Shown: piece by piece, positions 14,539 through 41,241 of the stretch
How the letters are laid out: every line of letters starts with the position of its first letter
How positions within the stretch are numbered: the first letter of the stretch is position 1
Assembly: GCF_038066715.1 (NCBI RefSeq)
Contig: NZ_JBBUKT010000009.1
Coordinates: 248,001-312,000 of the forward strand
Length of the DNA stretch: 64,000 nt
Origin: Luteolibacter sp. Y139
GTDB lineage: Bacteria > Verrucomicrobiota > Verrucomicrobiia > Verrucomicrobiales > Akkermansiaceae
Direction: 5' to 3'
Notes under the pieces: generated by a model
The model's input: only the letters and a program-made list of their open reading frames with translations
Databases searched by the model: none
Told to the model about the DNA's origin: nothing
Program-made: the position numbers and the translations under genes

Positions 14539-14542
14539 GGCT

Positions 14543-15094
14543 TCAGATCGAGTAGGCCTTCTGGCCGGGCTTGAGGTCCATGGCGGCATCCCAACGTCCG
14601 GGGACGAGGGTGAACTCGAAGGCCTGGGTCGCACCGATCTCGGAGTTCACGAAGCAGAACTTGGTGAGGTCCTTGAACTGGCGGATGAAGGCCTTGGTGT
14701 TCCCGGCTTGCTTCGCCTCGTTCTCCATGGCGGTTAGCAGGGTGATGCGCTCCGCGGTCGCGAGCTGGGCAAAGGGCTTCTTGGACTGATCCGCGGCGTG
14801 GGTTTCCACGGTGCCGAGACCTTCGAGGATCACCTTCTGATCGCTTTCGGGCAGGCAATCCTGGGCGATCAGTTCGATCAGCGCGGGAACGCCGGCATCG
14901 ATCGCTCCCGGAGTGTCGGTTTTCGGGATGATCGTCTCCGCAAGGACCGCGACGAGTTCGCGCTGGGGCTTGGTGAAAAAGGTTAGCTTCGACGGATCGA
15001 ATGGTTCGGCGAGCTTGGCGAAGGCGCTCTCCGGCAGGGCAAGTGAGCCGCCGAAGGTGAGCGCCATGACTTTGAGGATTTCCCGGCGGTCCAT
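14543..15094 (-). CDS. Gluconate 2-dehydrogenase subunit 3-like protein
   Basis: 183 residues with an N-terminal signal resembling a twin-arginine type (MDRREILKVMALTFGGSLAL). The mature part, with LAETIIPKTDTPGAIDAGVP, is characteristic of the gluconate_2-dh3 family, the small subunit that chaperones and exports its GMC partner across the membrane. Only four bases separate its stop from the GMC start, so the two are certainly one transcript. By analogy the complex would be periplasmic and deliver electrons to a cytochrome c. It is the first gene of the pair, 84 bases beyond the peptidase stop. Confidence 0.88.
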   Translation of the reverse strand: MDRREILKVMALTFGGSLALPESAFAKLAEPFDPSKLTFFTKPQRELVAVLAETIIPKTDTPGAIDAGVPALIELIAQDCLPESDQKVILEGLGTVETHAADQSKKPFAQLATAERITLLTAMENEAKQAGNTKAFIRQFKDLTKFCFVNSEIGATQAFEFTLVPGRWDAAMDLKPGQKAYSI

Positions 15095-15178
15095 GGGTTT
15101 GCCATGATTAACCCTTTCGAGGGGCCGCGGGCGAGCAAAAGCCTGCCCTCTCCCGTGAATGGGGGAGCGTGGATGTCC

Positions 15179-17242: not shown

Positions 17243-17251
17243 GGCCGGAAT

Positions 17252-17743
17252 ATGGCTAGCAAAACGATGAGATCATCGCTCCCCCTTCACCGTCTCCAGC
17301 GAATCGCGGGTCACGTGCCGAACTTGCAGCGAAGGGTGGGGAAATGGCCGATGCTTTTGCTGCTCGCGCTGCTGATGCCGATTCCTTCGTGTGCGCCCGC
17401 GACCGCCGTGCCTGCCAGCGAGGCCAATACCCTGCCGTGGCGCGGGAACGAGTCCGGGGCCTATCGACAGGGCCACAAGGATGGCAGCGGGGACAAGCGC
17501 GCGGGGCGTGCGTCCGCGCCGAAGACGGGGGAAGGGGCGGACTATCTGTTAGGATACCAGGACGGCTATCGCTACCCGAACGACAATCCGTGGAGCCGGC
17601 AGCGGGCCTATCAGCTCGGGCAGGAATACGGCCGGCGTGACCAGCTCGCCGGCCAAACGGCAGACCCGGCGCGGCATGCGAATGTCGTTCCCCGGGCGGT
17701 GCGCGACGAGTTCATCCAAGGCTATCGGGTGAGCCGCCGGTGA
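17252..17743 (+). CDS. Probable lipoprotein, unknown function
   Basis: 163 residues from the ATG at 17252. A basic stretch (LQRRVGKWP) precedes a hydrophobic run LLLLALLMPIPSC, and Cys in this place with a small residue before it fits a weak lipobox. The rest is hydrophilic, with RQGHKDGSGD, YLLGYQDGYRYP and YQLGQEYGRRDQ, a repeated Y-x-x-G-x-x-x-G-like pattern. Alternative starts exist at 17267, at a GTG before PNLQRR, and at 17351 (MLLLLALL). The frame is open further upstream, but that part is antisense to the peptidase. No family recognised. Confidence 0.6.
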   Translation: MASKTMRSSLPLHRLQRIAGHVPNLQRRVGKWPMLLLLALLMPIPSCAPATAVPASEANTLPWRGNESGAYRQGHKDGSGDKRAGRASAPKTGEGADYLLGYQDGYRYPNDNPWSRQRAYQLGQEYGRRDQLAGQTADPARHANVVPRAVRDEFIQGYRVSRR

Positions 17744-17898
17744 GTCGCATTTCGCGCGATTTTGTTAGGCGTGGCTGACCTTTTTCGAAGATCTACGGGT
17801 CTTCACGAGCGTTGTCGGCACCGCGCAGGGATATTTCGGATAGATGCGGAAATTCCCAGTTGCCGGGCGATTTTTGTACAGATAATAGCCGGTTGAAG

Positions 17899-19428
17899 AT
17901 GAAATCGACTCTCCTCAAAACCCTTGCAGCTACCTCCCTGGTAGCAACCACCCATGGCGCCATCAACGTCACGGGTGTCTCCTTCAAAGAGCGCGGCGTG
18001 AACGCCCCGGCTGGCACCATCATCTCGAATCCGGGAACGGTGGGCACCACCCGCGGCTATCTGATCCTGGATAGCACGGTGTCGACCGCAACGCCGAACA
18101 AGGCGACCTACATCGAATATGGGGCGATTCGCGATGGCGGCGATGTGACCAAGTACTACACCATCGACACCGATTTCACCGAATTCCGCGCGGACCTCAT
18201 CTCCGGCGAGACTGGCGGCCTCCGCCTTTACGGTCACATGCTGGCTCCCGTGCTGGTGGCCGCTACGCCCAACCCGCAGATTCCTTTCTCCGGCACCGCG
18301 CTTGGCACGAACTTCCCGAATCGCCTGAGCTTTGACCAGACGGCCTTCCAGACCGGTGGCAGCGATGCCTTGGCCGGCCCGCGGGTCCTTACGGCCGGTT
18401 CCTCAACCCTGCGCTCGGTGGTGAGCGGCAGCGGAGCTCCAGTGGCGGTACGCGCCGACACCCTGGCCGGTGTGCAGGCTGAACTGATCGCCCGCCTGAA
18501 GCTTCAGAACTACGTTCGCATCGCAGGTGAAGCTCCCGAGATCACGACCGATCTTCCCTTGACTGACACCATTCAGGATGGGGTTTCGAAAACCTACACC
18601 GTCGCACTGGATCCGGACGTGTTCCCAGGTTCGGGCGACACCTTTGCCGCTCCCACCTTCCAGTGGTACAAGAACAACGTCGCGATTGCCGGAGCCACCA
18701 CGGCTTCCCTGGTTATCACCGGTGCCCAAGCGACCACCGGTGCCGGCAGCTACAAGGTCGTGGTCACCAATGCCGTCGGCTCGGACACCAGCAATACCCT
18801 GGTGGTGACCCCGGTCGTCACCGCCTTCCTGGCGGATATTCCGGCGACATTGACGCTCAATGGCGCGAATTCGTTTACCTTCGTCCCCACGCTGAACCCG
18901 ACTCCGGTGACGCCGCCGACTTTCCAGTGGTTCAAGGCCACTGCTGCCGCGGGTCCATTCAACCCGGTTGCGTCACCTCCGACGAGCAACGTCCGCAGGC
19001 TGACGGTCATTCCGGGTGAAACCAACACCGGCGCGGGCTTCTACCGTCTCGACGTGACCACCTCGGCAGGGACCATCTCCAGCACGGTCTGCAACGTGAC
19101 CACCGCCGTGGCAGGAACGACCTTCTGCTTCACCACCAACCTGCCGCGCACGAATTCCGTAGCATTCTCCGGAACTCTCGTCCTGTCGCCGGTCGTCAAC
19201 GCAGCAGCCAACCCGGCTGTTGCCTCGCGCCAGTGGTCGAAGGCAGCGCCCGGTTCCACGACCTTCGTGGATATTCCCGCGGGTAGTGGCGGCACGAGTG
19301 CCACCTTCACCGTCAACGGCAACGATGCGGCCGCGAATGGTCCCGGCACCTACCGCATGATCGCAACTAGCGCCGCCCCGGTGCAGACGATCACCACGGT
19401 CGAGTGCGTGATCACCACGGCACCCTGA
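17899..19428 (+). CDS. Secreted protein with Ig-like domains
   Basis: 509 residues; signal peptide MKSTLLKTLAATSLVATTHG. After an N-terminal domain of about 190 residues with no family that I recognise come Ig-like (I-set) domains: FQWYKNNVAIAGATTASLVI with SYKVVVTNAVGS, a second with FQWFKATAAAG and a third with RQWSKAAPG. The Trp after Q and the terminal Y-x-(V/L/M)-x-(V/A)-T strand are the usual bacterial Ig-like marks. Such modules are adhesive or spacer elements in Verrucomicrobial exoproteins. The gene ends in a strong terminator at 19468, so it is transcribed alone or as the last gene. Confidence 0.78.
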   Translation: MKSTLLKTLAATSLVATTHGAINVTGVSFKERGVNAPAGTIISNPGTVGTTRGYLILDSTVSTATPNKATYIEYGAIRDGGDVTKYYTIDTDFTEFRADLISGETGGLRLYGHMLAPVLVAATPNPQIPFSGTALGTNFPNRLSFDQTAFQTGGSDALAGPRVLTAGSSTLRSVVSGSGAPVAVRADTLAGVQAELIARLKLQNYVRIAGEAPEITTDLPLTDTIQDGVSKTYTVALDPDVFPGSGDTFAAPTFQWYKNNVAIAGATTASLVITGAQATTGAGSYKVVVTNAVGSDTSNTLVVTPVVTAFLADIPATLTLNGANSFTFVPTLNPTPVTPPTFQWFKATAAAGPFNPVASPPTSNVRRLTVIPGETNTGAGFYRLDVTTSAGTISSTVCNVTTAVAGTTFCFTTNLPRTNSVAFSGTLVLSPVVNAAANPAVASRQWSKAAPGSTTFVDIPAGSGGTSATFTVNGNDAAANGPGTYRMIATSAAPVQTITTVECVITTAP

Positions 19429-19467
19429 CCGATTCCTTCGGAACCGCTTGGTTCACACGTGATTCTT

Positions 19468-19499
19468 CCCGCCAAGCCCACCGGCTTGGCGGGATTTTT
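19468..19499 (+). terminator. Rho-independent terminator
   Basis: An 11-bp perfect stem, CCCGCCAAGCC pairing with GGCTTGGCGGG, a CACC loop, then A and five T residues. It lies 40 bases after the stop of the Ig-domain gene and ends only five bases before the ATG of the next gene at 19505. This makes it a credible terminator for the upstream gene, and leaves unclear where the promoter of the downstream gene is. Confidence 0.95.
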
Positions 19500-19504
19500 G
19501 TCCC

Positions 19505-20101
19505 ATGAAACTTTCCCGAACCACCCTTATCGGACTGGCCCTCGCCGTGGCAGCCGTGGTGCTTGCCTGCGTCATTTTCAATCGTTCGACGCCGGATCAA
19601 GACAGCGTTGCCGGCGGTGGCAAAGGTGGCTCCAAGGCCAATTTCTCCGGCTCCGCGGCCCAGCCCGCCCCACCGAAGAAGACGCCTCGGCCCGAGATCG
19701 TCGACCGGAAGGCCTTGGCGGCCAAGGAGCTTGAGCTGTTGTGGGCGCGTGGCCTGAGCCAGGAGCTGGTGGTGGAGCTCGACCGGGTTTCGGCAATGAA
19801 GGATCCTGAATACTGGCGGGAAATCGGACCTCTTCTCATCAAGCAAGCGGCCAAGGAAGGTCGGCCGGACATCGCCAACTACATGCTCGTGACCAGCGAC
19901 GCCTCACCGGACGAAAACCTCCGGATCCAGATCTACGCCGCTGCCATGGAAAACCCCGACGAAGAGATCCGCGACACGGCCAAGCTCGAACTGGAAAACA
20001 TCACGGGGGAGCAATTCGCGACCGGGGATGCGGCACGCGCTTGGCTGGCGGCCAATCCACAGCCCGGCCCCGATGAAGAAGAAATCCCTGAGGGTCAGTA
20101 G
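19505..20101 (+). CDS. Membrane-anchored hypothetical protein
   Basis: 198 residues with an uncleaved-looking N-terminal helix (KLSRTTLIGLALAVAAVVLA), a Gly/Ser/Pro-rich linker to about residue 62, then an alpha-helical domain (ELELLWARGLSQELVVELDR; YWREIGPLLIKQAAKEGRPD) and an acidic tail ending EEIPEGQ. The helical part has a HEAT-like feel but I do not recognise a family. The ATG is fixed by the transmembrane helix and sits immediately after the terminator hairpin. Its 3' end overlaps the convergent entericidin-like gene by seven bases. Confidence 0.7.
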   Translation: MKLSRTTLIGLALAVAAVVLACVIFNRSTPDQDSVAGGGKGGSKANFSGSAAQPAPPKKTPRPEIVDRKALAAKELELLWARGLSQELVVELDRVSAMKDPEYWREIGPLLIKQAAKEGRPDIANYMLVTSDASPDENLRIQIYAAAMENPDEEIRDTAKLELENITGEQFATGDAARAWLAANPQPGPDEEEIPEGQ

Positions 20102-20271
20102 GTCGGCAGGTTTTCCTGCTGCTGTTCCTGACCGTTCCAAGTGCGGCCGTGGGACTTGTTCTCGATGCCCGTGCCCAGCAGGCGCATGTCACGGCCGAAG
20201 CCGATCGCGGTATTGCAGGAGCTCAGGGTGACGACAACGGCAAGCGCGGCGAATGCATACAGCTTCATCAT
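20095..20271 (-). CDS. Entericidin-like small lipoprotein
   Basis: 58-codon gene. The protein begins MMKLYAFAALAVVVTLSSCN, a lipoprotein signal with lipobox LSSC and Cys19 as the lipidated residue. The mature part, CNTAIGFGRDMRLLGTGIEN, matches the EcnA/EcnB pattern (CNTxxGxGxDxxxxGxxIxxxA) of entericidins. It would sit in the outer membrane; in E. coli the family is an antidote/toxin pair, but a single copy in Verrucomicrobia has no proven role. It overlaps the 3' end of the plus-strand gene ending at 20101. An alternative ATG at 20268 is one codon in. Confidence 0.85.
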   Translation of the reverse strand: MMKLYAFAALAVVVTLSSCNTAIGFGRDMRLLGTGIENKSHGRTWNGQEQQQENLPTY

Positions 20272-20298
20272 GGGGCGAACGTGGTAACTCGTATTTGT

Positions 20299-20320
20299 AG
20301 CGATGCAATCGCTTAATTTT
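20299..20320. terminator. Possible weak terminator hairpin
   Basis: AGCGAT-GCA-ATCGCT followed by TAATTTT on the plus strand. The hairpin is short (6 bp) and touches the stop codon of the gene that ends at 20313 on the minus strand. It could stop plus-strand readthrough from 19505-20101, or end the minus-strand transcript; the sequence alone does not decide. Confidence 0.35.
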
Positions 20321-21449
20321 CCTTAAGCTCTTTTCGGAGGTTCACGATGTCCTCCCGAAGTTCGAAAATGGAATCGCGCAGGGCTTCCATGGCCCGCTGG
20401 TGATCGGGGTCGTCAGCGATATCGATTAGCTCCATGCAGGCAGCGAGCGCCTCGTTTTGCCAATTCAGGCAGCGCTTCAGGAGGGCCAGGACGAAGCCGG
20501 TCTCGCGGGCATAGTCGCCGCCATTCAGCGCGCCGGCCATCTTGCCGGCCACCTGCATGAGGGTGCGGTTCAAAACGTCAGCCGCGGGATGCTGGCCACC
20601 GGCCCGGGTCAGGTCGATGCCGCGGAGCACGATCTCCTGCGCCTTTTCCTGCAGCGGGTGCTGGATGAAGAGCGCATCCGGGTCCCAGGTCTCTTCCTGC
20701 TCCTCGAACTCGGGGTCCTCCAGCCACGAATCCCCGTCGTCTCCTTCGCCGTCGCCCTGTTGTTCGCCCTCGCGGGCGAGCGCATCGAGCAGCCCATCCC
20801 AGCCCATGGCGAAGGCCTCCTTGCGCTGGGCGTCCGGATCGTCGCCGTATTTTTCGCGGACTTCCACGAAGGCCTCGGTGAGGCGCTCGGACTCCTTCAG
20901 CCGCTCCTCCCAGACAAATTCGTCGTCGCCGGCCATGGGGTCCACGCGCCGGATCAGCTGGGCCATGCAATCGCGCATGGCGTGGAGATTGGCGAGTTTC
21001 TGGGCCTCCTCGGCGTCCTCGTCCATTTTCCAGGCGCGGTCGGAGATATGCAGCTCGAAGCCATTGCTCTCAATGAGGATCCGGCCGTTCGCCTCGCTGA
21101 ACCATTCGAGATACAATGCGTTTTTCCAGCTGAAGGGCGGATCCTGGCCGTTCGCCCGCAGGGCATGGGCTTCCTCGTCTGAAACGAGCAGTGCCTTGGT
21201 TTTCCGCGAAGCCGTCATGTCGCCGACCACCCCGCGCTGCACGGCCTCCAGCGCGAGGCCATCCTGCACGTGCGGCTGGGGATTGCGGAAAGTCAGGCGC
21301 GCGCCGGCGAGGTCGCGCCAGCAATCGCCGCTCAATTCCAGCGTCACCGGCTGCTCGCGACCCGCCAGCCAGACCCAGCCGGCGGTTTTCCCCTCGACCG
21401 TGTTGTCGATCTCGCCGCGCACCACGGCCTGGTCGATTCTGCAAGCCAC
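20313..21449 (-). CDS. Acidic soluble hypothetical protein
   Basis: 378 residues, cytoplasmic, no signal or membrane segment. The middle contains a highly acidic linker (about residues 230-265, rich in D, E and W) and the end is a predicted coiled coil (EALRDSIFELREDIVNLRKE). An N-terminal beta-rich domain of about 60 residues includes GKTAGWVWLAG. No family recognised. It is divergent from the RseP-type gene at 21560 with 110 bases between, and is not in an obvious operon. High coding bias and the absence of an alternative frame make it a real gene. Confidence 0.72.
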   Translation of the reverse strand: MACRIDQAVVRGEIDNTVEGKTAGWVWLAGREQPVTLELSGDCWRDLAGARLTFRNPQPHVQDGLALEAVQRGVVGDMTASRKTKALLVSDEEAHALRANGQDPPFSWKNALYLEWFSEANGRILIESNGFELHISDRAWKMDEDAEEAQKLANLHAMRDCMAQLIRRVDPMAGDDEFVWEERLKESERLTEAFVEVREKYGDDPDAQRKEAFAMGWDGLLDALAREGEQQGDGEGDDGDSWLEDPEFEEQEETWDPDALFIQHPLQEKAQEIVLRGIDLTRAGGQHPAADVLNRTLMQVAGKMAGALNGGDYARETGFVLALLKRCLNWQNEALAACMELIDIADDPDHQRAMEALRDSIFELREDIVNLRKELKEN

Positions 21450-21559: not shown

Positions 21560-22984
21560 ATGGCATCCCTCAGCACCATTCCGCAGATCGCCCTCCTGAT
21601 TCTGGTGATCCTCGTGGTCTTCAATTTGATCATTTTCGTTCACGAACTCGGCCACTACTGGGCGGCAAAGTGGCGCGGTCTGAAGATCGACCGCTTCCAA
21701 ATCTGGTTTGGCAAGCCGATCTGGAGCAAGACCATCAATGGCGTGCAATGGGGTCTCGGCTGGATTCCGGCCGGTGGTTTCGTCGCGCTACCGCAGATGG
21801 CCCCGATGGAAACGATCGAGGGCGGCAACCTGGATCGCGAGCCGCTGCCGGCGATCAAGCCGATCGACAAGATCATCGTCGCCTTTGCCGGTCCGCTGTT
21901 TTCGTTCCTGCTGGCGCTGACTGCGGCGATCGGCGTTTCCATTGTTGGCAAGCCGAAGGATTTCGCGCCGACGCAAACGATCGCCGAGGTGATGGAAGGT
22001 AGCCCAGGTGAAAAGGCCGGCCTGAAGGCGGGCGACCGGATCACCCACATCAATGGCAGCCCCGTCAATGGCTGGGACGGCCGCCTGGACAGCATCTTCA
22101 CGCAGATCGTCACCAGTGAGGGTGATGACATCAACTTCACCGTGGAGCGTCCCGGCGAGGCCAAGCCGCTGCAGCTGACTTCTCATTTCGAAATTCCGCC
22201 GACCCGCTGGTGGCAGCGGAAGGCGCTGCGGCAAGTGGGCATCCAGCCGGAAACCGGCTGGGTCTATGCCGGTAACGCGCTCAAGGGCTCGCCTGCGGAA
22301 GCCGCCGGCGTGGAAGACGGCGACCGGCTCGTCTCCATGGACGGGAAGGAATTCACCAATCCAGATGAGGTCGTGACCTACATCCGCTCGAAGGGTGAGA
22401 CGCCGATCAAGTTCGTCTTCGAGCGCAAGGAACAGCTGGTCGAGATGACCATCCGTCCGCGCGTCCCGCTCAAACCGGAGGGCAAGAATGCCATGCTCGG
22501 GCTGAGCTTCCAGCCGGGCATCGTCTACGAGAACCACATCTTCAAGCCGAGCGCCGGAGAGCAGATCTCCGATACCCTGAAGCAGATGTGGCTGACCATC
22601 ACCCGGGTGATTTCGCCGAAGTCGAGCCTGGGGGTGGGCCACCTCAGCGGCCCGGTCGGAATCTTCAAGCTGCAGTACCGGATGCTGCGGATGGATCACC
22701 CGGTGCAGCGCATCCTCGGTTTCATGGTGCTGCTCAATATCAATCTCGCGATCCTGAACATGCTGCCCTTCCCGGTGCTGGATGGCGGGCACATCACGCT
22801 TGCATTGCTTGAGCAGCTGAAGGGCCGCCCGGTGCGTGCGAAGCTTCTGGAATACGTGCAGATCGGCTTCGCGATGCTGCTCTTCAGCGTGATGATCTTC
22901 GTCACCAGCAAGGACATCGGGGACGGGATCCAGCCGGGTGACGAAACAAAGAAGCCCGAGGAGTACGTGTTCCCGGCGAATTGA
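21560..22984 (+). CDS. rseP: RseP-type site-2 intramembrane zinc protease with two PDZ domains
   Basis: 474 residues. The first membrane segment holds the zinc motif HELGH at residues 28-32, and the late membrane segment has LNMLPFPVLDGGH, the NxxPxxxLDGGH motif providing the third ligand. Two PDZ domains follow the first membrane region (about 130-220 and 235-310, e.g. GSPGEKAGLKAGDRITHING and SPAEAAGVEDGDRLVSMDG). This is the site-2 protease that trims anti-sigma factors and signal-peptide remnants. It is not preceded by dxr or followed by bamA here, unlike the common gene order. Given the membrane-tailed sigma factor at 31998, a role in sigma activation is a possibility only. Confidence 0.93.
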   Translation: MASLSTIPQIALLILVILVVFNLIIFVHELGHYWAAKWRGLKIDRFQIWFGKPIWSKTINGVQWGLGWIPAGGFVALPQMAPMETIEGGNLDREPLPAIKPIDKIIVAFAGPLFSFLLALTAAIGVSIVGKPKDFAPTQTIAEVMEGSPGEKAGLKAGDRITHINGSPVNGWDGRLDSIFTQIVTSEGDDINFTVERPGEAKPLQLTSHFEIPPTRWWQRKALRQVGIQPETGWVYAGNALKGSPAEAAGVEDGDRLVSMDGKEFTNPDEVVTYIRSKGETPIKFVFERKEQLVEMTIRPRVPLKPEGKNAMLGLSFQPGIVYENHIFKPSAGEQISDTLKQMWLTITRVISPKSSLGVGHLSGPVGIFKLQYRMLRMDHPVQRILGFMVLLNINLAILNMLPFPVLDGGHITLALLEQLKGRPVRAKLLEYVQIGFAMLLFSVMIFVTSKDIGDGIQPGDETKKPEEYVFPAN

Positions 22985-30307: not shown

Positions 30308-31882
30308 TCATTTGCCCTTCGGGTAACCGTAGTAGAGGTGCATCGCGCCGTAAGTCCAGTTCGGCCCTTTCATGCCGGGGAAATTCGTGCGATCGAAGGT
30401 CAGTAGCAGATACGGAGCGGGACTTCCTTCCGGGAGAGGGACCAGATTCGGCCAGACACGGCCATTGCCGTTTTCCTCCCATGGAGGCAGGTCGAGGTCC
30501 AGCTTGCCCAGCGGTTGCAAGTCCGGGAACGAGCACACGTGGAAGCAGCGGTCCGAGCTACCGAAGAAGGCATAGCGGACGCCATCCACTTTCTGGATGG
30601 TGGTGCCGGTGCTGTCGTTTGCCACCGGTCCGGCGATGCGCTGGAAGTCACCGTCCCAGCGTGCGGACTCGAACACGGCGGCCTTGTAGCCATTCACGTT
30701 CCGGCAAAGGAGCATGCGCCATTTGTTGGCAGTCTTGTCGAAGACGCCGTGCGGGTCCTCGTAGTCGCCGACCAGTTCCATCGGCTTGGAAGTCATCACG
30801 GAGAATCCATGTCGCGGGTCTTTCTTTGAACGCACGGCCAGGATCTCTTTCTTCTCTTTCTTCGCGGGATCACCGTAGGCCGAGAACGCCACGGTCCAGC
30901 CGCGCCATTCGCCGCTCGGGCGATCGAGGAAGAGATGGGAAGCGAGTTCGTTTCGCAGCAGGCCATCGCCGCGATCGAAGGCGATCACGCCCTCGAACTT
31001 CAGATCGAAGATCCCCGGGTCCAGGCTGAAGACACCCTGCGCCGGATTCGGCAAGCCGCCGCCACGGGTGGTGGCGGTGAACCACAGCCGCCCTCCGTCT
31101 AACAAAGGCGTGCCTTCCTCGTCGGTGATCGCGCGGATGTCCGCCTGGCCCATGCCCGAGGTCAGGGACGCGGTGGCTTTCGGAATGGCGGCATAGGCTC
31201 CGTCTTCTCCTGCGACGCGCAACCACGTGGACATGTTTCGGAAGACCTCCGTCTTCCGGAGATCGAGGTGCGCCACGATATCGGTTCGTCCCACCAATTC
31301 GACCTGGTCGTGTTGCTTGAGATACACGTTGAAACCCACCGCGGCCATCTGGACGATGAGCGTGACGGGCTTATCGAGTGAGCGTGGCCGGAACTCTTCT
31401 GCTTCGCCTTCTACGAGCGTCTGGTCCTTGCGCTTCAGGTTCCAGCGGACGCCCTTGATGCTTTGCTTGCCGCAGACGGTTTCCACCCGCAGCACTTCGC
31501 CGTCCGGGTGGATGAATTCCAGGCCGATGCTGCTACCTTCGCCGCAGTCGGCGATTTCAAGCTGATAGGTGGCGAAGGGATTGAAGCCGCTGAACCACAC
31601 CGAGGTGTCCGTGGCACCTTCGCCGCGAACCATGAGCCGCCCTTGCGGCACGCTCACTTCGGCTTTCCCCGTGGTGCGCCGGATGGGATGCATCAGCTCG
31701 AGGCCCGCCACTTTGGCCGGGTCCAGGGACAAAAGCGGCAGTGCCTGATCGTCATCGAAGATCATCCGCTGGGTCGCCTGGCGCGTGAAATGGAGGTCGA
31801 GAGGGGAAATCTCCGCCCGCGCGGGTAGCCATGCGAGGCCGCAGAGCACGAGGCCTTTGAGAAAGAGGGGGCGGAGATGCAT
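30308..31882 (-). CDS. Secreted protein, GH43-like five-bladed propeller suspected
   Basis: 524 residues with a signal peptide (MHLRPLFLKGLVLCGLAWLP). The first half is beta-rich (EISPLDLHFTRQATQRMIFD; QLEIADCGEGSSIGLEFIHP). The C-terminal 240 residues look like blades of a glycoside-hydrolase propeller: HLFLDRPSGEWRGWTVAFSA, NKWRMLLCRNVNGYKAAVFE, and FGSSDRCFHVCSFPDLQPLG. I cannot place catalytic acids with confidence. A polysaccharide- or sugar-related secreted protein is the best guess. It is divergent from the sigma-factor gene at 31998. Confidence 0.6.
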   Translation of the reverse strand: MHLRPLFLKGLVLCGLAWLPARAEISPLDLHFTRQATQRMIFDDDQALPLLSLDPAKVAGLELMHPIRRTTGKAEVSVPQGRLMVRGEGATDTSVWFSGFNPFATYQLEIADCGEGSSIGLEFIHPDGEVLRVETVCGKQSIKGVRWNLKRKDQTLVEGEAEEFRPRSLDKPVTLIVQMAAVGFNVYLKQHDQVELVGRTDIVAHLDLRKTEVFRNMSTWLRVAGEDGAYAAIPKATASLTSGMGQADIRAITDEEGTPLLDGGRLWFTATTRGGGLPNPAQGVFSLDPGIFDLKFEGVIAFDRGDGLLRNELASHLFLDRPSGEWRGWTVAFSAYGDPAKKEKKEILAVRSKKDPRHGFSVMTSKPMELVGDYEDPHGVFDKTANKWRMLLCRNVNGYKAAVFESARWDGDFQRIAGPVANDSTGTTIQKVDGVRYAFFGSSDRCFHVCSFPDLQPLGKLDLDLPPWEENGNGRVWPNLVPLPEGSPAPYLLLTFDRTNFPGMKGPNWTYGAMHLYYGYPKGK

Positions 31883-31997
31883 CGAGCCGATTCAAGGAGG
31901 CATCGCCACGCGGTGTCGAGTCCCCCTGCGCGGCATCTTCCGAAAGAAAAACACGCCGACCTGTCCGATTTCTTTTCCGGTGGTTACTATGGAATGA

Positions 31998-33536
31998 GTG
32001 AACGCATTGACCGACCAGGAACTCCTGCGCGAATACGCCGCGAGCCGTTCTGATTCCGCCTTCCGGGAATTGGTGCGGCGGCACATCGATCTCGTCCATT
32101 CCGCGGCGCGACGGCTGGTGCGGGATTCGCACACGGCGCAGGACGTGACGCAGGCCGTCTTCACAGCGCTTTCGAAGGATGCGCGGAAAGTTTCCTCCCA
32201 TCCCGTGCTCGCCGGTTGGCTGCACAAAACCACGCGCCATCTTTCCACCAATGTCATCCGCGCCGACGCCCGTCGCCGGGTGCGCGAGCAGCAGGCCATC
32301 GCCATGAATGCCCAAGCCGCTTCCGACAGCGAGCCCGAGCCCGTGTGGGCGGACATCGCCTCGCATCTCGACGCCGTGCTCGGCGAACTCAGCGAGTCCG
32401 ACCGTGATGCCGTCATTCTCCGCTTCTTTGAAAAGCGCTCGGCGAAGGAGATCGGCTGCATTCTGGGAATCACTGCCGAGGCCGCCCAGAAGCGGGTGAA
32501 CCGGGCAATCGAGCGCCTGCGTGAATCCTTCGCACGGCGCGGGGTTGCGGGAAGTGGAGCGGGTCTCACCGGGGTGATCGGCAGCAATGCCGTCCAAGCG
32601 GCTCCTGCCGGCCTGACTGCCGCCATCACCGCCGGGGTGATCGCCGGCTCAATAGCTAATACCACAACCACCAGTATTCTCATGACCACACTCTCGAAGA
32701 TGCTTCTTCCTACCGCCGTCGTGGCACTCGCCGGGACTTGGCTGGTCCAGAATCGTGAGGCCGAGCGCCTGCGTGCCGAAATCGCTCCTGCCATGCAGGT
32801 GCAGGCGGCGAATCTTCCCCCCTCTAGTGTGGGTTTTGCCAGAGTCGGTGCGGATCCTAGCGAGACCGGAAACTCCGTGGGGATTGGTGTCGGCATTGGG
32901 GAGGCAAGCTCCGGGAACGAAGACACCGCGAATGGAGGGGGCGGTGGATTTTCGGTAGTGGCAGGGGCGATGCTCGATGGCGAGTGGTCCGGCCCAGGAC
33001 CCGGGCCAGAGCCGGTCGCACTCGATAAGAAGGGCCGCCCGACCACCGACATGGTCGAAACGCTGGAGCTAACTGATGAAGAGGTCGCGGCGTTGGAAAC
33101 CGCTATCCGCCGCATCCGTGACGATGCCACCGGGGATTTCGTGAAGCGGGTGAAATTAACGAGCTCCGGAAACAAGGACGATGGCGATCATTATCTCTAC
33201 CAAGCTCCGGCCCGGACTGATGAAGGGAAGATCTTCTTCGATGCGTTCGCAAAGGCATTTGCTGATGTCCTCGGCGAGAGCCGCGGCCGGAAGCTCACTG
33301 ATGCCATGACTGACTACGATTTTCTCGGCGGCATGGGGAAATACGATCTGGAGTTCGATTTTTGCCGGACTCCCGAGCGAGAAATCAGGGTAAAGGCCTG
33401 GTATCGGAAACCGGGCACCACAGAGGACGTGCTGAGCAGGCAATGTGATCAAGAGAGCTTCGAGGAGGACTTCGGAAAGGTCTTCGAGTTTCCGGATGAC
33501 GGCGGCAGTCCGTCTCTCAAGGTTCCGGCTCGCTGA
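31998..33536 (+). CDS. ECF-type sigma factor with a C-terminal membrane segment and extracytoplasmic tail
   Basis: 512 residues, GTG start (GGA tract just before). Sigma-70 region 2 is about 15-75 (FRELVRRHIDLVHSAARRLV, HTAQDVTQAVFTALS) and region 4 about 125-175 (LGELSESDRDAVILRFFEKR, KEIGCILGITAEAAQKRVNR). After a Gly/Ala-rich hydrophobic stretch a membrane helix is predicted at LLPTAVVALAGTWLV (about 236-250), then a coiled coil and a domain to the end. This layout, a sigma factor tethered through its C-terminus, is known from Planctomycetes and Verrucomicrobia; such sigma factors respond to signals outside the cytoplasm, possibly after proteolysis. Its tail resembles the next gene product. 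Confidence 0.88.
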   Translation: MNALTDQELLREYAASRSDSAFRELVRRHIDLVHSAARRLVRDSHTAQDVTQAVFTALSKDARKVSSHPVLAGWLHKTTRHLSTNVIRADARRRVREQQAIAMNAQAASDSEPEPVWADIASHLDAVLGELSESDRDAVILRFFEKRSAKEIGCILGITAEAAQKRVNRAIERLRESFARRGVAGSGAGLTGVIGSNAVQAAPAGLTAAITAGVIAGSIANTTTTSILMTTLSKMLLPTAVVALAGTWLVQNREAERLRAEIAPAMQVQAANLPPSSVGFARVGADPSETGNSVGIGVGIGEASSGNEDTANGGGGGFSVVAGAMLDGEWSGPGPGPEPVALDKKGRPTTDMVETLELTDEEVAALETAIRRIRDDATGDFVKRVKLTSSGNKDDGDHYLYQAPARTDEGKIFFDAFAKAFADVLGESRGRKLTDAMTDYDFLGGMGKYDLEFDFCRTPEREIRVKAWYRKPGTTEDVLSRQCDQESFEEDFGKVFEFPDDGGSPSLKVPAR

Positions 33537-33569
33537 GTTCCTGTGGTCTGTTAGGGACACTTTTTCGAA

Positions 33570-34313
33570 ATGATGATCATGAAACGTTGGAACATTCTCC
33601 TTTGCTGCATCCTTCTCGTTCTAGGGGTAGCGGTGTTTCAGAAGCACCGTGAAGTGTCCGGGTTGCGTGAGAAAGCACGCCCGCATCTGGTGGCATCTGG
33701 AGGAGCCGAGCCTATCGGACCAACAAAACCTCATGGAGAGCGCCCGGAGAAATCGAGCGATGAAGGCTTCGAAGAAGACGAAGAGAACGAACTCATCGCC
33801 GGGATGAGCGCGTTCCGTCCCGATGGAGGCTTGTCGGAGGAGGCGATCAAGCGCTTGGGCCTCACCCAAGCGGAGGCCACAGCCGCGAATGAGGTGATGC
33901 ATCAATTCCGGACGGAGGCAGAGACGGATTTGGCGCAGCGCCTGAAGCCGACGGCAAAGCATTCTGAAGATGGCCGTCTTCACCAAGGCTACTACGCTCG
34001 CGCCCGACGAGACCGGGGGCAGGCGCCGTTTGATGAATTGACGCTCGCCCTTGGATCGGTCGTCGGGCAGGACCGTTCGCGGCGGCTAATGAAGGCCTTC
34101 ACTCACGGCGAACTTAGCGCGCGGCTGTGCAGGTTGGATCTGGAGCTTGAGGTGGTCCAGCCGGCGGAAGAGGGAAAGGAAGTGTGGGTGAGTTACGAGC
34201 TCCGAAGCCCGAGGGATGGTAAAGTCTGGGAGTCCAGCAGCGGGTCGTCGTTGCCGAAGTTCGAGCAGAAGTTCGGGAAGATCTTTGAAGTTGGAGAGGC
34301 TAGCGCTGAATGA
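33570..34313 (+). CDS. Membrane protein homologous to the tail of the adjacent sigma factor
   Basis: 247 residues. A single membrane helix (NILLCCILLVLGVAVFQ) is followed by a coiled coil, LxxTxxE-type helix (LGLTQAEATAANEVMHQF) and a C-terminal domain with LCRLDLELEV and FEQKFGKIFEV. The sigma factor's tail has LVQNREAERLRAE, LELTDEEVAALETAI, KYDLEFDF and FEEDFGKVFEF in the same order and spacing, so the two look like paralogues. No family beyond that is recognised. It follows the sigma gene by 33 bases and is probably in the same transcript. A role in binding or tuning the tail is an inference. Confidence 0.75.
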   Translation: MMIMKRWNILLCCILLVLGVAVFQKHREVSGLREKARPHLVASGGAEPIGPTKPHGERPEKSSDEGFEEDEENELIAGMSAFRPDGGLSEEAIKRLGLTQAEATAANEVMHQFRTEAETDLAQRLKPTAKHSEDGRLHQGYYARARRDRGQAPFDELTLALGSVVGQDRSRRLMKAFTHGELSARLCRLDLELEVVQPAEEGKEVWVSYELRSPRDGKVWESSSGSSLPKFEQKFGKIFEVGEASAE

Positions 34314-34368: not shown

Positions 34369-35106
34369 TTACCACTCGTCATCCAGGCTGCTGCTTGCGC
34401 CGATGCCGGTGACGACGATGACCTGTTGTAACTCGCGGTAGCGCTTGTCGTCGCTCGAGATCAGATCTTCCTTGGGAAGATCGGGGATCACCTTGACCGC
34501 CGCGAGATCGGTGGGGCCGAGGGTGACCTCGAAGTAGAGATGCTCGCCTTCTTCGACATCGAGGGTGCCGAGAGTACCGTCGTTCTCGTCGAGAGCCGGG
34601 CTCCAGCTGTCGTGGACGTTGCTGTGCTGCTCCGCATCGTTGACGAACAAGGAGAAGGGCTTCCGATTCAGGGACTGGAGCTTGGCGATGGTCATGCCGA
34701 TCTGGACGCCATGCTTGCCGCGCCAGCGTGAGCCGGGATCGGTCACGAGGATGCTGGCCAGGATCTCGAACTTTTCCTTTTCGTGGAAGGTGACGTAGGC
34801 GCGACGAGTTGGGTCATCGGGAAAAAGCACGAGCCGTGGCTCAGGGGTGGTTTCCTTGCGCACGTTGGCCTTGCCGAAACGTGCTTCGAGATCCGCCACG
34901 GTGGTGGCTTCCGCGTAGTCGCCGGGCAGGAGGAGGAAGGCATCGGACGCCGGGGCGGCTGCGGGTTCTTCCGTTTTCGCCGGCTCCTTGGGCGCAGCTG
35001 CGGCTTCGGCACCTTTGGGTTTCTCGGCGGGTTTGCAGGAGACGAGGATCAGGGCTGCGCCGGTGATCCATGCACATGTGAGACGGAGAAGGGGAGACGC
35101 GCTCAT
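34369..35106 (-). CDS. Lipoprotein, unknown function
   Basis: 245 residues from 35106. LTCAWITGAALILVSCKPAE is a lipoprotein signal with lipobox LVSC. An Ala/Lys/Glu/Pro linker follows to about residue 55, then a beta-rich domain (RAYVTFHEKEKFEILASILV; GVQIGMTIAKLQSLNRKPFS) related by eye to the MltA- or DUF-type lipoproteins; not identified. Its start overlaps the stop of the upstream gene by four bases (ATGA), so it is translationally coupled to the PA2928-like gene. The frame is open further up but inside that gene. Confidence 0.72.
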   Translation of the reverse strand: MSASPLLRLTCAWITGAALILVSCKPAEKPKGAEAAAAPKEPAKTEEPAAAPASDAFLLLPGDYAEATTVADLEARFGKANVRKETTPEPRLVLFPDDPTRRAYVTFHEKEKFEILASILVTDPGSRWRGKHGVQIGMTIAKLQSLNRKPFSLFVNDAEQHSNVHDSWSPALDENDGTLGTLDVEEGEHLYFEVTLGPTDLAAVKVIPDLPKEDLISSDDKRYRELQQVIVVTGIGASSSLDDEW

Positions 35107-36410
35107 GGCTTTTGCTGGGTGAGATCTTCCGCCGGCCAGTCGCGATGCAGGTCGGGGTTGAAGGATTTCCATTCCCCGGTCTCGAGATCAATCGAGATGA
35201 TCTGCATCGCCTGGTTCTCGCCCTCTTCTGTCATCGGCGAGTGCTCGACAGATGGGTCCGGGCCTAACATCAGCGCGTGGCGCTCGCCGGGGAGCCAGGC
35301 ACTCACCGCGGAAAGTGGCAGCGCCTTGCTCCATGCCGGGCGACCTGCGGGACCGGTGATGCGGGCGATCTGCATGCGCCCGGTTTCGCCAAGCCGATCG
35401 CGCGAGAGCACGAAGACGCTCGGTGGGTCCTTCCGCCACATGGCCGTTTGCTGGTCCCACGTGGGAGATTCCTGCGTGAGAAGCCCGCCCATCAAGAACT
35501 CAGGGCTTTCGGGCAATGGGATGGGCTCGAGAAATTGCCAGCGCGGGCCAAGGAACTCGTCGATCTTCTTCAAGCGTGCGCGATACAGCTTGTGGCGCAT
35601 CGGCTCGCTGAAGTTCACCTGATTGCCGATCGTCTTGCGCGTGGTTGCCTCTTCCAATTCGGAGTCGGCGATGAGACCCAGCCAGTCCTGATCGGCATCC
35701 GGCCGCTGGATGTTCACGCCGCGCACCATGGCGCGCCACTCCATGCCATTGCTCAACCGCTCGACCTTGGTGCGGCCGGGTGTCTTCCCGTCGTTTTCCT
35801 TTTTGGGTGCAACATAGGGAGTTGCTTCCAGGGTCAGCGGATCAATCCGCACCTGCCGTGCATCATCCAGCCTCACGATCATCCCGACGCTGGCGTCGAA
35901 TTTCAGCGGCTGCATTGATTCCGTTAGAAACATGCCGGTGCCCGGTGGTTTCGGTATCAGGCCTTTCAGCGAGGGATTGCGCGCCTCGATCTTCGCGCTA
36001 TCGGCGATGGTCGCGCCGTCGGAGAGGCGGATGCCGACGAGTTCGGGAATACGTGCCCACAGGATTCCCTGTTCCTGGCCCATCGCGACGTAGTCACCAT
36101 TGACCCTGTCTCTCTTCAGCCGTTTGCGAAAGACCGGTTGCGCGGTCGCGGCGTCGAGCGCCCAAAGGTCGACATTCAGCCACCCAATGGTCTTGCGGTT
36201 GGAACCTGAGCGCGAGCCGCCCACGTAGCTGATCCGCTTTTCCCACTGGCTGGTCAGGTAGTAGAGGCGGTCGCCCTTTTCATCGATGACCCGCACCGGG
36301 CCGCCGAGCATTTCCGGGGGCGTGAGGAAGATCTGCGACCCCCACTTGCCGAACTTCCAGAGAAGAGCGGCGGCGCCGAACAGGAGGATGAGCAGCAGGA
36401 TGTTCTTCAC
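35103..36410 (-). CDS. Membrane-anchored protein, PA2928-like
   Basis: 435 residues with an N-terminal membrane anchor (MKNILLLILLFGAAALLWKF) and a beta-propeller-like body: MLGGPVRVIDEKGDRLYYLT, DVDLWALDAATAQP-type segments, IPELVGIRLSDGATI and a C-terminal IISIDLETGEWKSFNPDL. PA2928-family proteins have this appearance; the assignment is by resemblance and tentative. It is the first gene of a two-gene operon with the lipoprotein gene. Function unknown. Confidence 0.6.
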   Translation of the reverse strand: MKNILLLILLFGAAALLWKFGKWGSQIFLTPPEMLGGPVRVIDEKGDRLYYLTSQWEKRISYVGGSRSGSNRKTIGWLNVDLWALDAATAQPVFRKRLKRDRVNGDYVAMGQEQGILWARIPELVGIRLSDGATIADSAKIEARNPSLKGLIPKPPGTGMFLTESMQPLKFDASVGMIVRLDDARQVRIDPLTLEATPYVAPKKENDGKTPGRTKVERLSNGMEWRAMVRGVNIQRPDADQDWLGLIADSELEEATTRKTIGNQVNFSEPMRHKLYRARLKKIDEFLGPRWQFLEPIPLPESPEFLMGGLLTQESPTWDQQTAMWRKDPPSVFVLSRDRLGETGRMQIARITGPAGRPAWSKALPLSAVSAWLPGERHALMLGPDPSVEHSPMTEEGENQAMQIISIDLETGEWKSFNPDLHRDWPAEDLTQQKP

Positions 36411-37480: not shown

Positions 37481-37641
37481 GGGGTGGGAAAGGAACCTTT
37501 AAGTTTGCTTTAGCGTATCAGGGCGGGAAACGGGTTCAAGCTTCCGTCCTTGGCGAAGGTGGGACCGATCCTCGAAAATTAACCGTGGAATGCTGCCTAA
37601 CGGGGCAAGTTTCGCATGGACAAGGCCCGGCGCTTGAATCG

Positions 37642-37652
37642 TTGTCATACAA
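37642..37652. promoter_or_regulatory. Palindromic TTGTCATACAA, candidate operator
   Basis: Perfect TTGT-CAT-ACAA palindrome (13 bases with the flanking G and C) 11 bases before the GH76 start codon. Palindromes of the type TTGT-N3-ACAA are bound by some GntR/FadR-type repressors. No such regulator gene is in the window, and a single chance palindrome cannot be excluded. Confidence 0.3.
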
Positions 37653-37662
37653 CTTACCCGAG

Positions 37663-40600
37663 ATGCCAAAGCTTCATTTCCTCCGGTGGTTTGCCGTGAT
37701 CGCTTTGATGGTGCTGCTCCCGGCGTCGTCGTTGAGCGCATTCACCGATGCGGATGCCGACCTGGCCTACGATGCCTACAACACGGCCTTCTATCAGACG
37801 CAGACGAATGGCCGCGCCTACTACAAGGAGACCACCGATGGCGGGCATGCGTGGTTCTGGGGTCAGGCGAACATGATGGAGATGGTGGCGGATGCGTATG
37901 ATCGCGCGCCATCGCAAGAGAAGCGGGACCGGCTGGCGGCGCTTTGCAAGGGCTTCATGGACTACCACGGCACGAGTTGGTCGTGGAATGAGTACAACGA
38001 CGACATCATGTGGGCGTGCATCGTCTTCACGAAGACCTACCTCGCCACGGGTGACACGCAGTATCTCAGTCGCGCGACGGCGAACTTCGATGTGGTGTGG
38101 AATCGCGCGTGGGCGACGAGCGCTGGGGGTGGGCTGTATTGGAAAGGCACCGGCGGATCGAGGAATGCGTGCGTGAATTCGCCGGCCGCGATCGTGGCCA
38201 CCATGCTCTACGATATTACGGGCAACACGGCCTACCTCGACAAGGCGATGAGCATCATCGCCTGGATGGACAGCACGTTGGTCCGGACCACCGGAGCGAT
38301 CGACGATAACATCGGCAGCACCGGAACGATCACGGATTGGCACTTTACCTATAATCAAGGCACCTACGTCGGAGCCTGCAGCGCGCTCTACCGGATCACC
38401 GGGGAGCTTCCCTACCTGGACAATGCCATCAAGGCCGCGCGCTACACCCGGGACAGCATGTGCAATGCGGCGGGGATTTTCCCGAACCACGGGACCTCGG
38501 GTGATGGCGGCGGTTTCAATGGCATCGGCATCCGGTGGATCACCCGGATGGTGCGGGACCAAGGGCTGTGGGATGAGTTCTACCCGTGGCTGAAGGTGAA
38601 TGCCGACACTGCGTGGAATATCCGCCGGGTGGCAGACAATCTTTCGTGGGCGAACTGGCGTGCGGCCACGCCGGCGGACTTGCTGTATGGGTTTGGTTGC
38701 TATGGCTCGGTCACCGCCATGCAAGTGGTGCCATCGACGGATCCGTCCGACATCACCGGTCTAGCAGGTCCGGCGGCCGCCTCGATCTATCAGGCGGAGA
38801 ATGCGTCGCTGCAGGGAGGCGTGGTAGTCGCGACGGCGGTCTCCGGTTTCCGCGGCACGGGCTACGCGGATTACATCAATAGCCTGGGCGAAACGATCAC
38901 CTTCACGGTGACGGCGGAGAAGGCGGGCCAGCATTGGGTTTCCTTCCGCTATGGCAATGGCGGCACGGTGAATCGTCCGGTGAAGATGAGGGTGAATGGC
39001 GTGGTCAATCAGGATCTTCCCTTCGCGCCGACCGGTGCGTGGACCTCGTGGTGGTATAGCCCCGGCGTGCTGGTCACGCTGAATGCCGGCTCGAATACAA
39101 TCGCGCTCACGCCGAACCAGAACTCCGCACCGAATGTGGACCTGCTGTATTTGTGCGCGGCTCCGAAGAGTGCGCCGCCGGGGGCGACGATGCTTTTCGA
39201 TGGCACGGCGTCATCGCTGACGGCGAATTGGAAGCGCGATGAAAACAGCACCGCGCCGACGTGGACCGTTTCCAATGGTGCGATGAGCGTGGTGCCGACG
39301 CCTGCTCGAAACGACATCTCCACGGTGAATGCGTATCGCGACTACAAGCTGCATCTCGAGTGGCTCGCGCCGCCGGGGGGACTTGGCCAGGACGCGGCGA
39401 ACTCCGGGGTGAAGCTGCAAGGTCGCTATGAGATCCAGATCCTCAACACGCCGCGTGGACAGACTTCGTGGCCGACTACCGCGGCGGCGATTCTTGGAAA
39501 GAAGGCGGCTGCCGCGAATGCGAGCCTGGGGGCGGGGCATTGGCAGAGCTACGACATCGATTTCACCGCGCCGCGGTGGAATGGCAGCGTGAAGACCGCC
39601 GATGCACGCGTGACCGTTCGTTGGAATGGAGTGCTGGTGCAGGACAATGTCGCGCTGACGGCGGTCACGGATGGCTCGCTTGCGGAGGCACCGGGTCTTC
39701 AGCCGATCCTATTGCAGGCGGCCACGAGCACGGCCAGTGGTCCGGTTCGCTTCCGCAATGTGTGGGTGCTGCCGAAGCCGACCACGGTTTATGAAGCCGA
39801 GCTCGCGACCATGGCCGGGCCATTGACCGCCTCGGGGAATGCCGGATTCAGCGGCACGGGTTTCGCGGACTATGGCACGAACGTTGGTGAGACAATCACT
39901 TGGAATGTGGAAGCGGAGAAGACGGGCGATCATTGGATCTCCTTCCGCTATGCGAATGGGGTGACCACCACGCGCCCGCTGAATCTCACGGTGAATGGCA
40001 ATGCGATCCAGCAGTTGCCCTTCGGTCCGAGTGGAGCATGGACGAGCTGGATCTTCACGAACGGTGTGAAGGTTCCTCTAACCGTCGGGACCAATACCAT
40101 CCGGCTCACGTCCACGATCACTAATGGGCCGAACGTGGACTACCTCTACGTCAGCGGTCCGCCGCGCTCGGCACCGAGCGGTGCGCTGGTGTTGTTCGAT
40201 GGCACGCAAGCCTCACTCACGCAGAATTGGCAGCGCGATGAAGATCACAGCGCGCCGAATTGGACGGTGGCGCAGGGAGCGATGGGTGTGGTCGCCTCGC
40301 CATCGAGGAATGACCTTTCGACCAAGGTCGGGTTCAAGGATTTCCAGCTTCATCTCGAGTGGCTCTCGCCGCCGGGAGGCTCGGGCCAGGATGCGGGGAA
40401 CTCGGGCGTGAAGCTCCAGCGCGCGTATGAGATCCAGATCCTGAATACGGCGGCGGGCCAGGCAGCGGCCAACGATGGTGCCGGTGCGATCTTCCAGCAG
40501 AAGTCGCCGGATACGAACGCGAGCGTGGGTGCGGGGCAGTGGCAAACTTACGATGTCGAGTTCACCGCCGCGAAGTGGTCGGGGAATGTAAAGACCGCGA

Positions 40601-41241
40601 ATGCCCGGGTGCGTGTTTATTGGAATGATGTGCTGGTCCACGATGACGTGGTGCTTTCACAGGGCACGGGTGGAGCTGCCGAAGCGCCGGGCTTCCAGCC
40701 GCTGCTGTTAGAGGCGCTTGCCAATAGCGCCAGTGGTCCGGTGCAGTTCCGGAACATCTGGGTCACGGGCGAATCCGGGGCGATCAGTCCGGTCACGCCG
40801 CAGGAGTTCTGGACCGAGTGGATGGACACGTCTGCTTTGACCGGCATTGATCGCGATGCGAACCGCGATACCGATGGCGACGGGCTCCCGAATTTCTGGG
40901 AGTACGTCACCGGCGGAAATCCGAAATCTTCCGATCTCACCGGCCCCGGTGGCGAGAGCCGTACGCCACGCATGGCGCTGGTGAATGACAGTGGGAATCG
41001 CTTCGCCGAGTTCACTTTCCTTCGCCGTGCGGATGCTGCGACGCGGGGCCTGGTGATTTCAGCGGAGTCTTCCACCACGCTCAACTCGACGCCGTGGACT
41101 GCGCGCACAATCACGCAGGTCGGCTCGCCGGTGCCGGTGGGTGATGGGACGCTGGAGCGAGTGAAAGTGCGGGTGAACCTGCCGCTGGGTGCGGAGACGA
41201 GGATGTTCCTGCGCTTGAAGGCGGATGTCGCGGCGGAGTGA
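37663..41241 (+). CDS. Secreted modular GH76 protein: GH76, CBM, DUF1080, CBM, DUF1080, C-terminal module
   Basis: 1192 residues; signal peptide MPKLHFLRWFAVIALMVLLP. GH76 (about 30-365) has the double Asp YNDDIMWA at residues 113-114, the catalytic pair expected in alpha-1,6-mannanases. Then CBM35-like (370-500; SIYQAENASLQGG), DUF1080/3-keto-disaccharide hydrolase-like (506-707; TMLFDGTASSLTANW, YEIQILNT), a second CBM35-like (708-840) and second DUF1080-like (840-1045; LVLFDGTQASLTQNW). The last 120 residues carry NRDTDGDGLPNFWEY, a Ca-binding-like loop, and a beta-rich end RMFLRLKADVAAE. The two CBM-DUF1080 units are clear duplicates. The start at 37663 is set by the signal peptide. Likely mannan or related polymer use. 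Confidence 0.85.
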   Translation: MPKLHFLRWFAVIALMVLLPASSLSAFTDADADLAYDAYNTAFYQTQTNGRAYYKETTDGGHAWFWGQANMMEMVADAYDRAPSQEKRDRLAALCKGFMDYHGTSWSWNEYNDDIMWACIVFTKTYLATGDTQYLSRATANFDVVWNRAWATSAGGGLYWKGTGGSRNACVNSPAAIVATMLYDITGNTAYLDKAMSIIAWMDSTLVRTTGAIDDNIGSTGTITDWHFTYNQGTYVGACSALYRITGELPYLDNAIKAARYTRDSMCNAAGIFPNHGTSGDGGGFNGIGIRWITRMVRDQGLWDEFYPWLKVNADTAWNIRRVADNLSWANWRAATPADLLYGFGCYGSVTAMQVVPSTDPSDITGLAGPAAASIYQAENASLQGGVVVATAVSGFRGTGYADYINSLGETITFTVTAEKAGQHWVSFRYGNGGTVNRPVKMRVNGVVNQDLPFAPTGAWTSWWYSPGVLVTLNAGSNTIALTPNQNSAPNVDLLYLCAAPKSAPPGATMLFDGTASSLTANWKRDENSTAPTWTVSNGAMSVVPTPARNDISTVNAYRDYKLHLEWLAPPGGLGQDAANSGVKLQGRYEIQILNTPRGQTSWPTTAAAILGKKAAAANASLGAGHWQSYDIDFTAPRWNGSVKTADARVTVRWNGVLVQDNVALTAVTDGSLAEAPGLQPILLQAATSTASGPVRFRNVWVLPKPTTVYEAELATMAGPLTASGNAGFSGTGFADYGTNVGETITWNVEAEKTGDHWISFRYANGVTTTRPLNLTVNGNAIQQLPFGPSGAWTSWIFTNGVKVPLTVGTNTIRLTSTITNGPNVDYLYVSGPPRSAPSGALVLFDGTQASLTQNWQRDEDHSAPNWTVAQGAMGVVASPSRNDLSTKVGFKDFQLHLEWLSPPGGSGQDAGNSGVKLQRAYEIQILNTAAGQAAANDGAGAIFQQKSPDTNASVGAGQWQTYDVEFTAAKWSGNVKTANARVRVYWNDVLVHDDVVLSQGTGGAAEAPGFQPLLLEALANSASGPVQFRNIWVTGESGAISPVTPQEFWTEWMDTSALTGIDRDANRDTDGDGLPNFWEYVTGGNPKSSDLTGPGGESRTPRMALVNDSGNRFAEFTFLRRADAATRGLVISAESSTTLNSTPWTARTITQVGSPVPVGDGTLERVKVRVNLPLGAETRMFLRLKADVAAE

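Follow-up and report, generated by a model that had tools for sequence, protein, structure and literature searches.

An ECF sigma factor with a membrane-anchored tail domain and an adjoining gene for a separately anchored copy of that tail in Luteolibacter sp. Y139

Results

The sigma factor gene and its partner

The window analysed here is a stretch of 64,000 nucleotides from Luteolibacter sp. Y139 (contig NZ_JBBUKT010000009.1, positions 248,001 to 312,000). The gene at 31998-33536 (plus strand) starts with GTG and encodes an ECF sigma factor of 512 amino acids, which carries a membrane helix and a C-terminal tail. Sigma region 2 (residues 25-92, 32070-32273; PF04542, E 2e-10) and sigma region 4 (residues 124-176, 32367-32525; PF04545, E 7e-10 and PF08281, E 6e-9) scored above the Pfam cut-offs and region 3 is absent, which are the features of ECF (group 4) sigma factors. 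The protein reached 77.5 bits with TIGR02937 (cut-off 42.9), and stayed below the curated cut-off of TIGR02989, the Rhodopirellula/Verrucomicrobium sigma family (46.8 bits vs 124.55).

The membrane helix of the sigma factor comprises residues 227-245 (32676-32732; hydropathy 1.72) and is preceded by the residues MTTLSK. With the sigma regions in the cytoplasm and a single helix crossing the membrane, the tail would be located in the periplasm. Behind the helix stands a juxtamembrane motif, NREAERLR (residues 252-259, 32751-32774), which is also present in the stand-alone protein described below, and in which Arg253, Glu254, Leu258 and Arg259 are invariant. A low-complexity linker then leads to the tail domain proper, an alpha/beta domain of about residues 346-500 (33033-33497).

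The second gene of the pair (33570-34313, plus strand) begins 33 nt past the sigma stop codon and encodes a membrane-anchored protein of 247 amino acids, hereafter called the partner. Only six residues precede its membrane helix (residues 7-25, 33588-33644), and a linker separates the helix from a domain of about residues 85-242 (33822-34295). No other relatives of the partner were found in its own genome, and it did not match any anti-sigma family in Pfam or NCBIfam. The gap between the two genes contains a terminator-like hairpin followed by a T run (33537-33558), which could tune partner levels; such hairpins were equally frequent in shuffled sequence. The flanking genes (30308-31882 and 34369-35172) are both on the minus strand, thus the sigma factor and partner genes are set apart as a separate unit. 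Further downstream in the window a large secreted protein is encoded (37585-41241), in which a glycosyl hydrolase 76 domain is combined with two CBM35 stretches and two 3-keto-disaccharide hydrolase domains.

A single candidate for a releasing protease was identified, an RseP-type site-2 protease (21560-22984, plus strand; TIGR00054, 219.5 bits vs a cut-off of 147.55). Its gene is not linked to the sigma operon.

The partner is a paralogue of the sigma factor tail

An earlier note on this DNA had claimed that the C-terminal half of the sigma factor recurs as the separate protein encoded at 33570-34313. The claim was borne out by two kinds of comparison. In a single BLASTP comparison residues 349-497 of the sigma factor aligned with residues 89-240 of the partner (30% identity, E 5e-17). 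Two profiles built separately, one from three sigma tails and one from three stand-alone proteins, aligned over 250 columns with a probability of 99.7 (E 1.5e-25). The profile alignment spans the membrane helix, the juxtamembrane [NH]RE-x3-LR motif and the sequence up to the FE-x2-FGK-x-F end, so the homology extends past the membrane helix. A restriction to the helix was what the earlier note had named as refuting its claim.

AlphaFold predicted the C-terminal domain of the partner confidently, with block pLDDT values mostly near 90 and a dip near residue 175. In the predicted fold a long helix leads into a beta hairpin, after which come two helices, three strands and a final helix. The same order was obtained for the sigma tail, with both models using the same four sequences. 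The full-length sigma model was poor (mean pLDDT 54.6), and contacts between sigma and tail are not readable from it. The earlier note had not recognised the tail domain, and we came to the same result: the domain had no match up to E 1 in Pfam and no family in NCBIfam, Foldseek returned nothing at E<=0.001 (the best hit, at 0.05, was thioesterase-like), and the best VIA-align Z score, 5.0, was within background. VIA-align matches to the ornithine cyclodeaminase/mu-crystallin dimerisation domain, Csm1 and minor pilins (4.2-4.5) were set aside as background.

The pair and other tail copies in related genomes

The pair was then looked for in relatives. In Haloferula sp. BvORR071 (L033), which belongs to the window's genus, both genes are found in the same order, the sigma factor being 59% and the partner 48% identical to the window proteins. 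The two genes also adjoin in G084 (L045), where they overlap by 4 nt, and in G365 (L119), a member of another family of the order, in which a sigma factor with this tail is followed by a stand-alone copy. Members of the tail profile were detected in 9 of the 18 genomes of the genus, in 20 of 386 genomes of the order, and in 8 of 387 genomes sampled across the phylum.

The two copies can also reside in one polypeptide. In G331 a protein of 732 amino acids (L115) consists of the sigma factor, the membrane helix and two consecutive tails, with no partner gene adjoining. In the tree the second tail of this protein clusters with the downstream members of four same-genome tandem pairs (support 97/91); its first tail falls, with weak support (90/61), among the upstream members. 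Another sigma factor with two internal tail copies was found in G090 (L096), and these two copies are mutual nearest relatives (100/97). On contig C162 of the same genome, three membrane-tailed sigma genes follow one another over about 7 kb (14473-21096; in L096 4417-6264 and 7271-8914).

The tail family consists largely of proteins that have no sigma part. Relatives of this kind often have two stand-alone copies in tandem, as at L046, L086, L090, L116, L118 (twice), L122 and L123; at L116 of G331 only the tandem pair is present, and the gene upstream has no sigma match. At 5 of the 28 sigma-less loci, vs 0 of 59 control loci, a stand-alone tail member adjoins a Tat-exported secreted protein (L048, 5515-5949; L089, 7245-8444; L090, 6791-7516; L095, 6420-7121; L124, 1649-2368), with two further possible cases at L049 and L117. 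The exported neighbour may act as a ligand of the tail pair or be its cargo.

The tree also gives a relative dating of the duplications. The tails of the window and Haloferula sigma factors cluster together (100/95), and their partners cluster apart from them (100/99), thus this duplication is older than the split of the two lineages. The pairs of L119 (96/87) and L086 (100/97) are younger, their copies being mutually nearest. The presence of both old and young pairs indicates that the two-copy state arose more than once, a pattern that would be expected if the function of the tail needs two copies side by side.

Membrane-tailed sigma factors as a group

Long membrane-tailed sigma factors proved to be abundant in the window's genus. 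We collected 76 distinct examples with downstream DNA, mostly from this genus, and scored as partner a downstream ORF with an N-terminal hydrophobic segment. At least 30 of the 76 sigma genes are directly followed by an anchored gene in the same direction (19 with a 4-nt overlap), a count that is somewhat favoured, since the refinement of start codons looked for hydrophobic segments, and that misses clear partners at L160, L189 and L192. At E<0.01, 28 of the 30 partners matched some sigma tail vs 9 of 168 other genes, several of these nine being themselves located downstream of sigma genes. At E<1e-6 the corresponding numbers were 13 and 0.

Most of the partnered sigma factors have tails composed of DPxAAxxW helical repeats, which by profile comparison are unrelated to the window tail. 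Within this class the partner is often closer to the tail of another sigma factor than to that of its own. L157 represents a third, unrelated tail family, helical and with LTPEQ motifs; here the partner matched its own sigma tail (35% identity, E 4e-29) and no other. The resemblance between partner and sigma tail is thus seen in three tail families that are unrelated to one another. No partner was detected for more than half of the 76 sampled sigma factors, and in the window's own tail family L120 encodes a sigma factor with a single tail and no adjoining partner, therefore the pair is not universal.

In all 30 partners only 0-13 residues precede the membrane helix. The partners of L174 (2313-3494) and L189 (2529-3803) are lipoprotein-like, with VASC and CASC motifs, and may be anchored by a lipid in place of the helix. 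The short cytoplasmic segments and the lipobox of the L174 partner together indicate that the partners work at or outside the membrane.

Promoter of the sigma operon

Upstream of the window sigma gene we predicted a -35 element, TGTCCG (31962-31967, plus strand), and 17 nt past it a -10 element, TACTAT (31985-31990, plus strand), the latter conserved in Haloferula as TATTAT. The predicted -10 element ends 7 nt ahead of the start codon at 31998, so the transcript of the operon would be leaderless or nearly so. The -35 element corresponds to the YTGTC[CA] sequence common to membrane-tailed sigma genes. Their shared promoter consists of this sequence with Ts ahead of it, a 17-nt spacer, a variable -10 element and 7-20 nt to the start codon. 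For some 50 further sigma genes (L134-L193) the predicted promoters likewise lie close to start codons, and many mRNAs of membrane-tailed sigma factors may be leaderless.

The strict YTGTC[CA] pattern was present at 32 of the 76 sigma genes, vs 1.1 in shuffled sequences (maximum 5) and 2 of 201 control genes. Between sigma factors that are 45-70% alike the identity of the -10 elements was 0.42-0.47, vs 0.24-0.25 for less similar sigma factors, and for the same 45-70% pairs spacer identity was 34-38% vs a baseline of 35%. A common -35 element combined with a -10 element that tracks the sigma factor is what autoregulation predicts, and the sequence data are consistent with autoregulation of the sigma operon.

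The exact motif TGTCCG-N17-TAYTAT has a single occurrence in the genome of 7.1 Mb, at the promoter of the sigma gene itself. Allowing one mismatch gave 6 sites vs 8 for the reversed control, that is, no excess. Either the sigma factor's own operon would be its main target, or the promoters of other targets differ more. Upstream of the sigma-less tail genes the TGTC element was absent, and scans for Sigma70-type promoters and for terminators gave nothing above shuffled sequences.

Discussion

A proposed two-subunit receptor carrying a sigma factor

We think it somewhat more probable than not that the pair is an operon under its own control, whose products form a periplasmic receptor of two subunits, with an ECF sigma factor attached to the cytoplasmic end of one of them. 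The support comes from the homology of tail and partner, the adjacency of the genes, the fusion of the sigma factor with both tail copies, the recurrence in three tail families and the covariation of the promoter. The many sigma factors with no detected partner, the partners of the DPxAAxxW class that are closer to a foreign tail, and the absence of regulon sites other than the sigma promoter count against it. In the proposed mechanism the sigma tail and its anchored paralogue would associate laterally at the membrane. This pairing would be altered by a signal, most likely periplasmic, and the sigma factor would be freed or activated. Stepwise proteolysis is the likeliest route, with the last cut presumably made by an RseP-type protease, as for IutY (ECF243) of Pseudomonas putida, a sigma/anti-sigma fusion activated by Prc and RseP (PMC5411451; PMC8999054). 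The sigma factor would then act at the YTGTC-N17 promoter to transcribe its own operon, which would yield more sensor pairs.

The step from signal to sigma factor could also proceed without release. The sigma factor would then stay membrane-bound, and pairing of tail and partner would switch it to another conformation or oligomeric state. The sequence has no feature that demands cleavage, and the gene of the RseP-type protease is some 10 kb away, outside the operon; IutY, the one studied ECF sigma factor of comparable layout, is nevertheless activated by proteolysis (PMC5411451; PMC8999054), and we regard action in place as rather unlikely. Still less probable is that the partner serves as a decoy, which would provide negative feedback by drawing either the signal or the tail's binding partner away from the sigma tail. 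A decoy would have just the domain and anchoring that the partner has, and would be co-expressed, as here, from an apparently autoregulated promoter. It would need neither the fusion of both copies into one sigma factor, as in G331, nor a tandem pair in fixed order, yet sigma-less relatives keep such a pair.

The bulk of the tail family, which has no sigma factor, and the Tat-exported neighbours at 5 of 28 sigma-less loci would suit envelope proteins with a job of their own, merely duplicated in tandem and with no regulatory role. We consider this improbable, as the arrangement recurs in three unrelated tail families with tight 4-nt overlaps. The earlier note had also offered an anti-sigma-like role for the partner, beside binding of the sigma tail and competition for its signal. 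A membrane-anchored product of the gene right after a sigma gene is where a classical anti-sigma factor, binding sigma regions 2 and 4, might be looked for, but the six residues ahead of the partner helix, and at most 13 in the 30 analogues, are too few to grip these regions from the cytoplasm, and neither Pfam nor NCBIfam returned such a family. This role is very improbable. What stands of the earlier proposal is an independent membrane partner of the sensor tail, favoured by adjacency, by the G331 fusion and by recurrence, with binding to the sigma tail as the preferred option.

Wider significance

The proposed two-subunit receptor may extend beyond this locus. As a tentative view, which we hold with less confidence than the reading of the pair itself, the membrane-tailed sigma factors would form a widespread, undescribed verrucomicrobial class: tethered ECF sigma factors acting as two-subunit receptors, each tail with a co-encoded anchored copy, and signalling across the membrane in one step, with exchangeable tails combined with a constant sigma part and a constant TGTC-N17 promoter. 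The recurrence of a two-part sensor with unrelated sensor parts suggests an unstudied route from outside signals to genes. The build of the proteins leaves fewer options: action of the partner is confined to the outside of the cytoplasm, and a single protein can contain both copies. The promoter expected to report sigma activity is predicted to the base. Together these points make a two-gene test feasible, and such a test would bear on dozens of these sigma factors in one genus.

Comparison with known systems

The window sigma factor is an ECF sigma factor of an already known kind, that with regulatory transmembrane extensions. According to a 2022 review 15 of the 26 groups of ECF sigma factors with regulatory extensions are unstudied (PMC8999054). 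In the part of the literature that was covered we found no account of the membrane-tailed sigma factors of this group, and no description of a co-encoded, separately anchored copy of a sigma factor's own tail.

ECF52 (SCO4117), ECF48 and ECF53 of Actinobacteria are likewise ECF sigma factors with a C-terminal transmembrane extension, and their activation is expected to involve proteolysis (PMC8999054). In these groups one or two helices are combined with a zinc-finger anti-sigma part, whereas the window sigma factor, with no zinc-finger match in Pfam and no cysteine in residues 177-226, has a paired partner gene instead. ECF57 of Planctomycetes has a large C-terminal extension too, which is thought to act through protein interaction (PMC8999054), but it consists of WD40-like repeats, for which the window sigma factor had no Pfam match. 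In ECF42 an extended sigma factor is accompanied by an adjacent YCII-domain protein, a conserved neighbour thought to be regulatory, as here (PMC8999054); there, however, the extension is TPR and the neighbour is not a copy of it.

ECF41 resembles the window sigma factor in its -35 element, TGTCACA, which is close to TGTC[CA], and in its C-terminal extension with a regulatory role; its only detected target, in both organisms that were studied, was the neighbouring gene (PMC3426412). The ECF41 extension is cytoplasmic and SnoaL-like, with no membrane helix, whereas the window sigma factor had no SnoaL match in Pfam. The promoters differ in spacer (16 +/- 1 nt vs 17 nt) and in the -10 element (CGTC vs TAYTAT).

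IutY operates together with an outer-membrane receptor; a stand-alone tail paralogue is absent from the cited accounts of it. The window tail, in turn, lacks a FecR-type periplasmic domain (no Pfam match up to E 1). What the two proteins would share is their layout, in which a single polypeptide joins a cytoplasmic ECF sigma factor through one membrane helix to a regulatory domain in the periplasm (PMC5411451).
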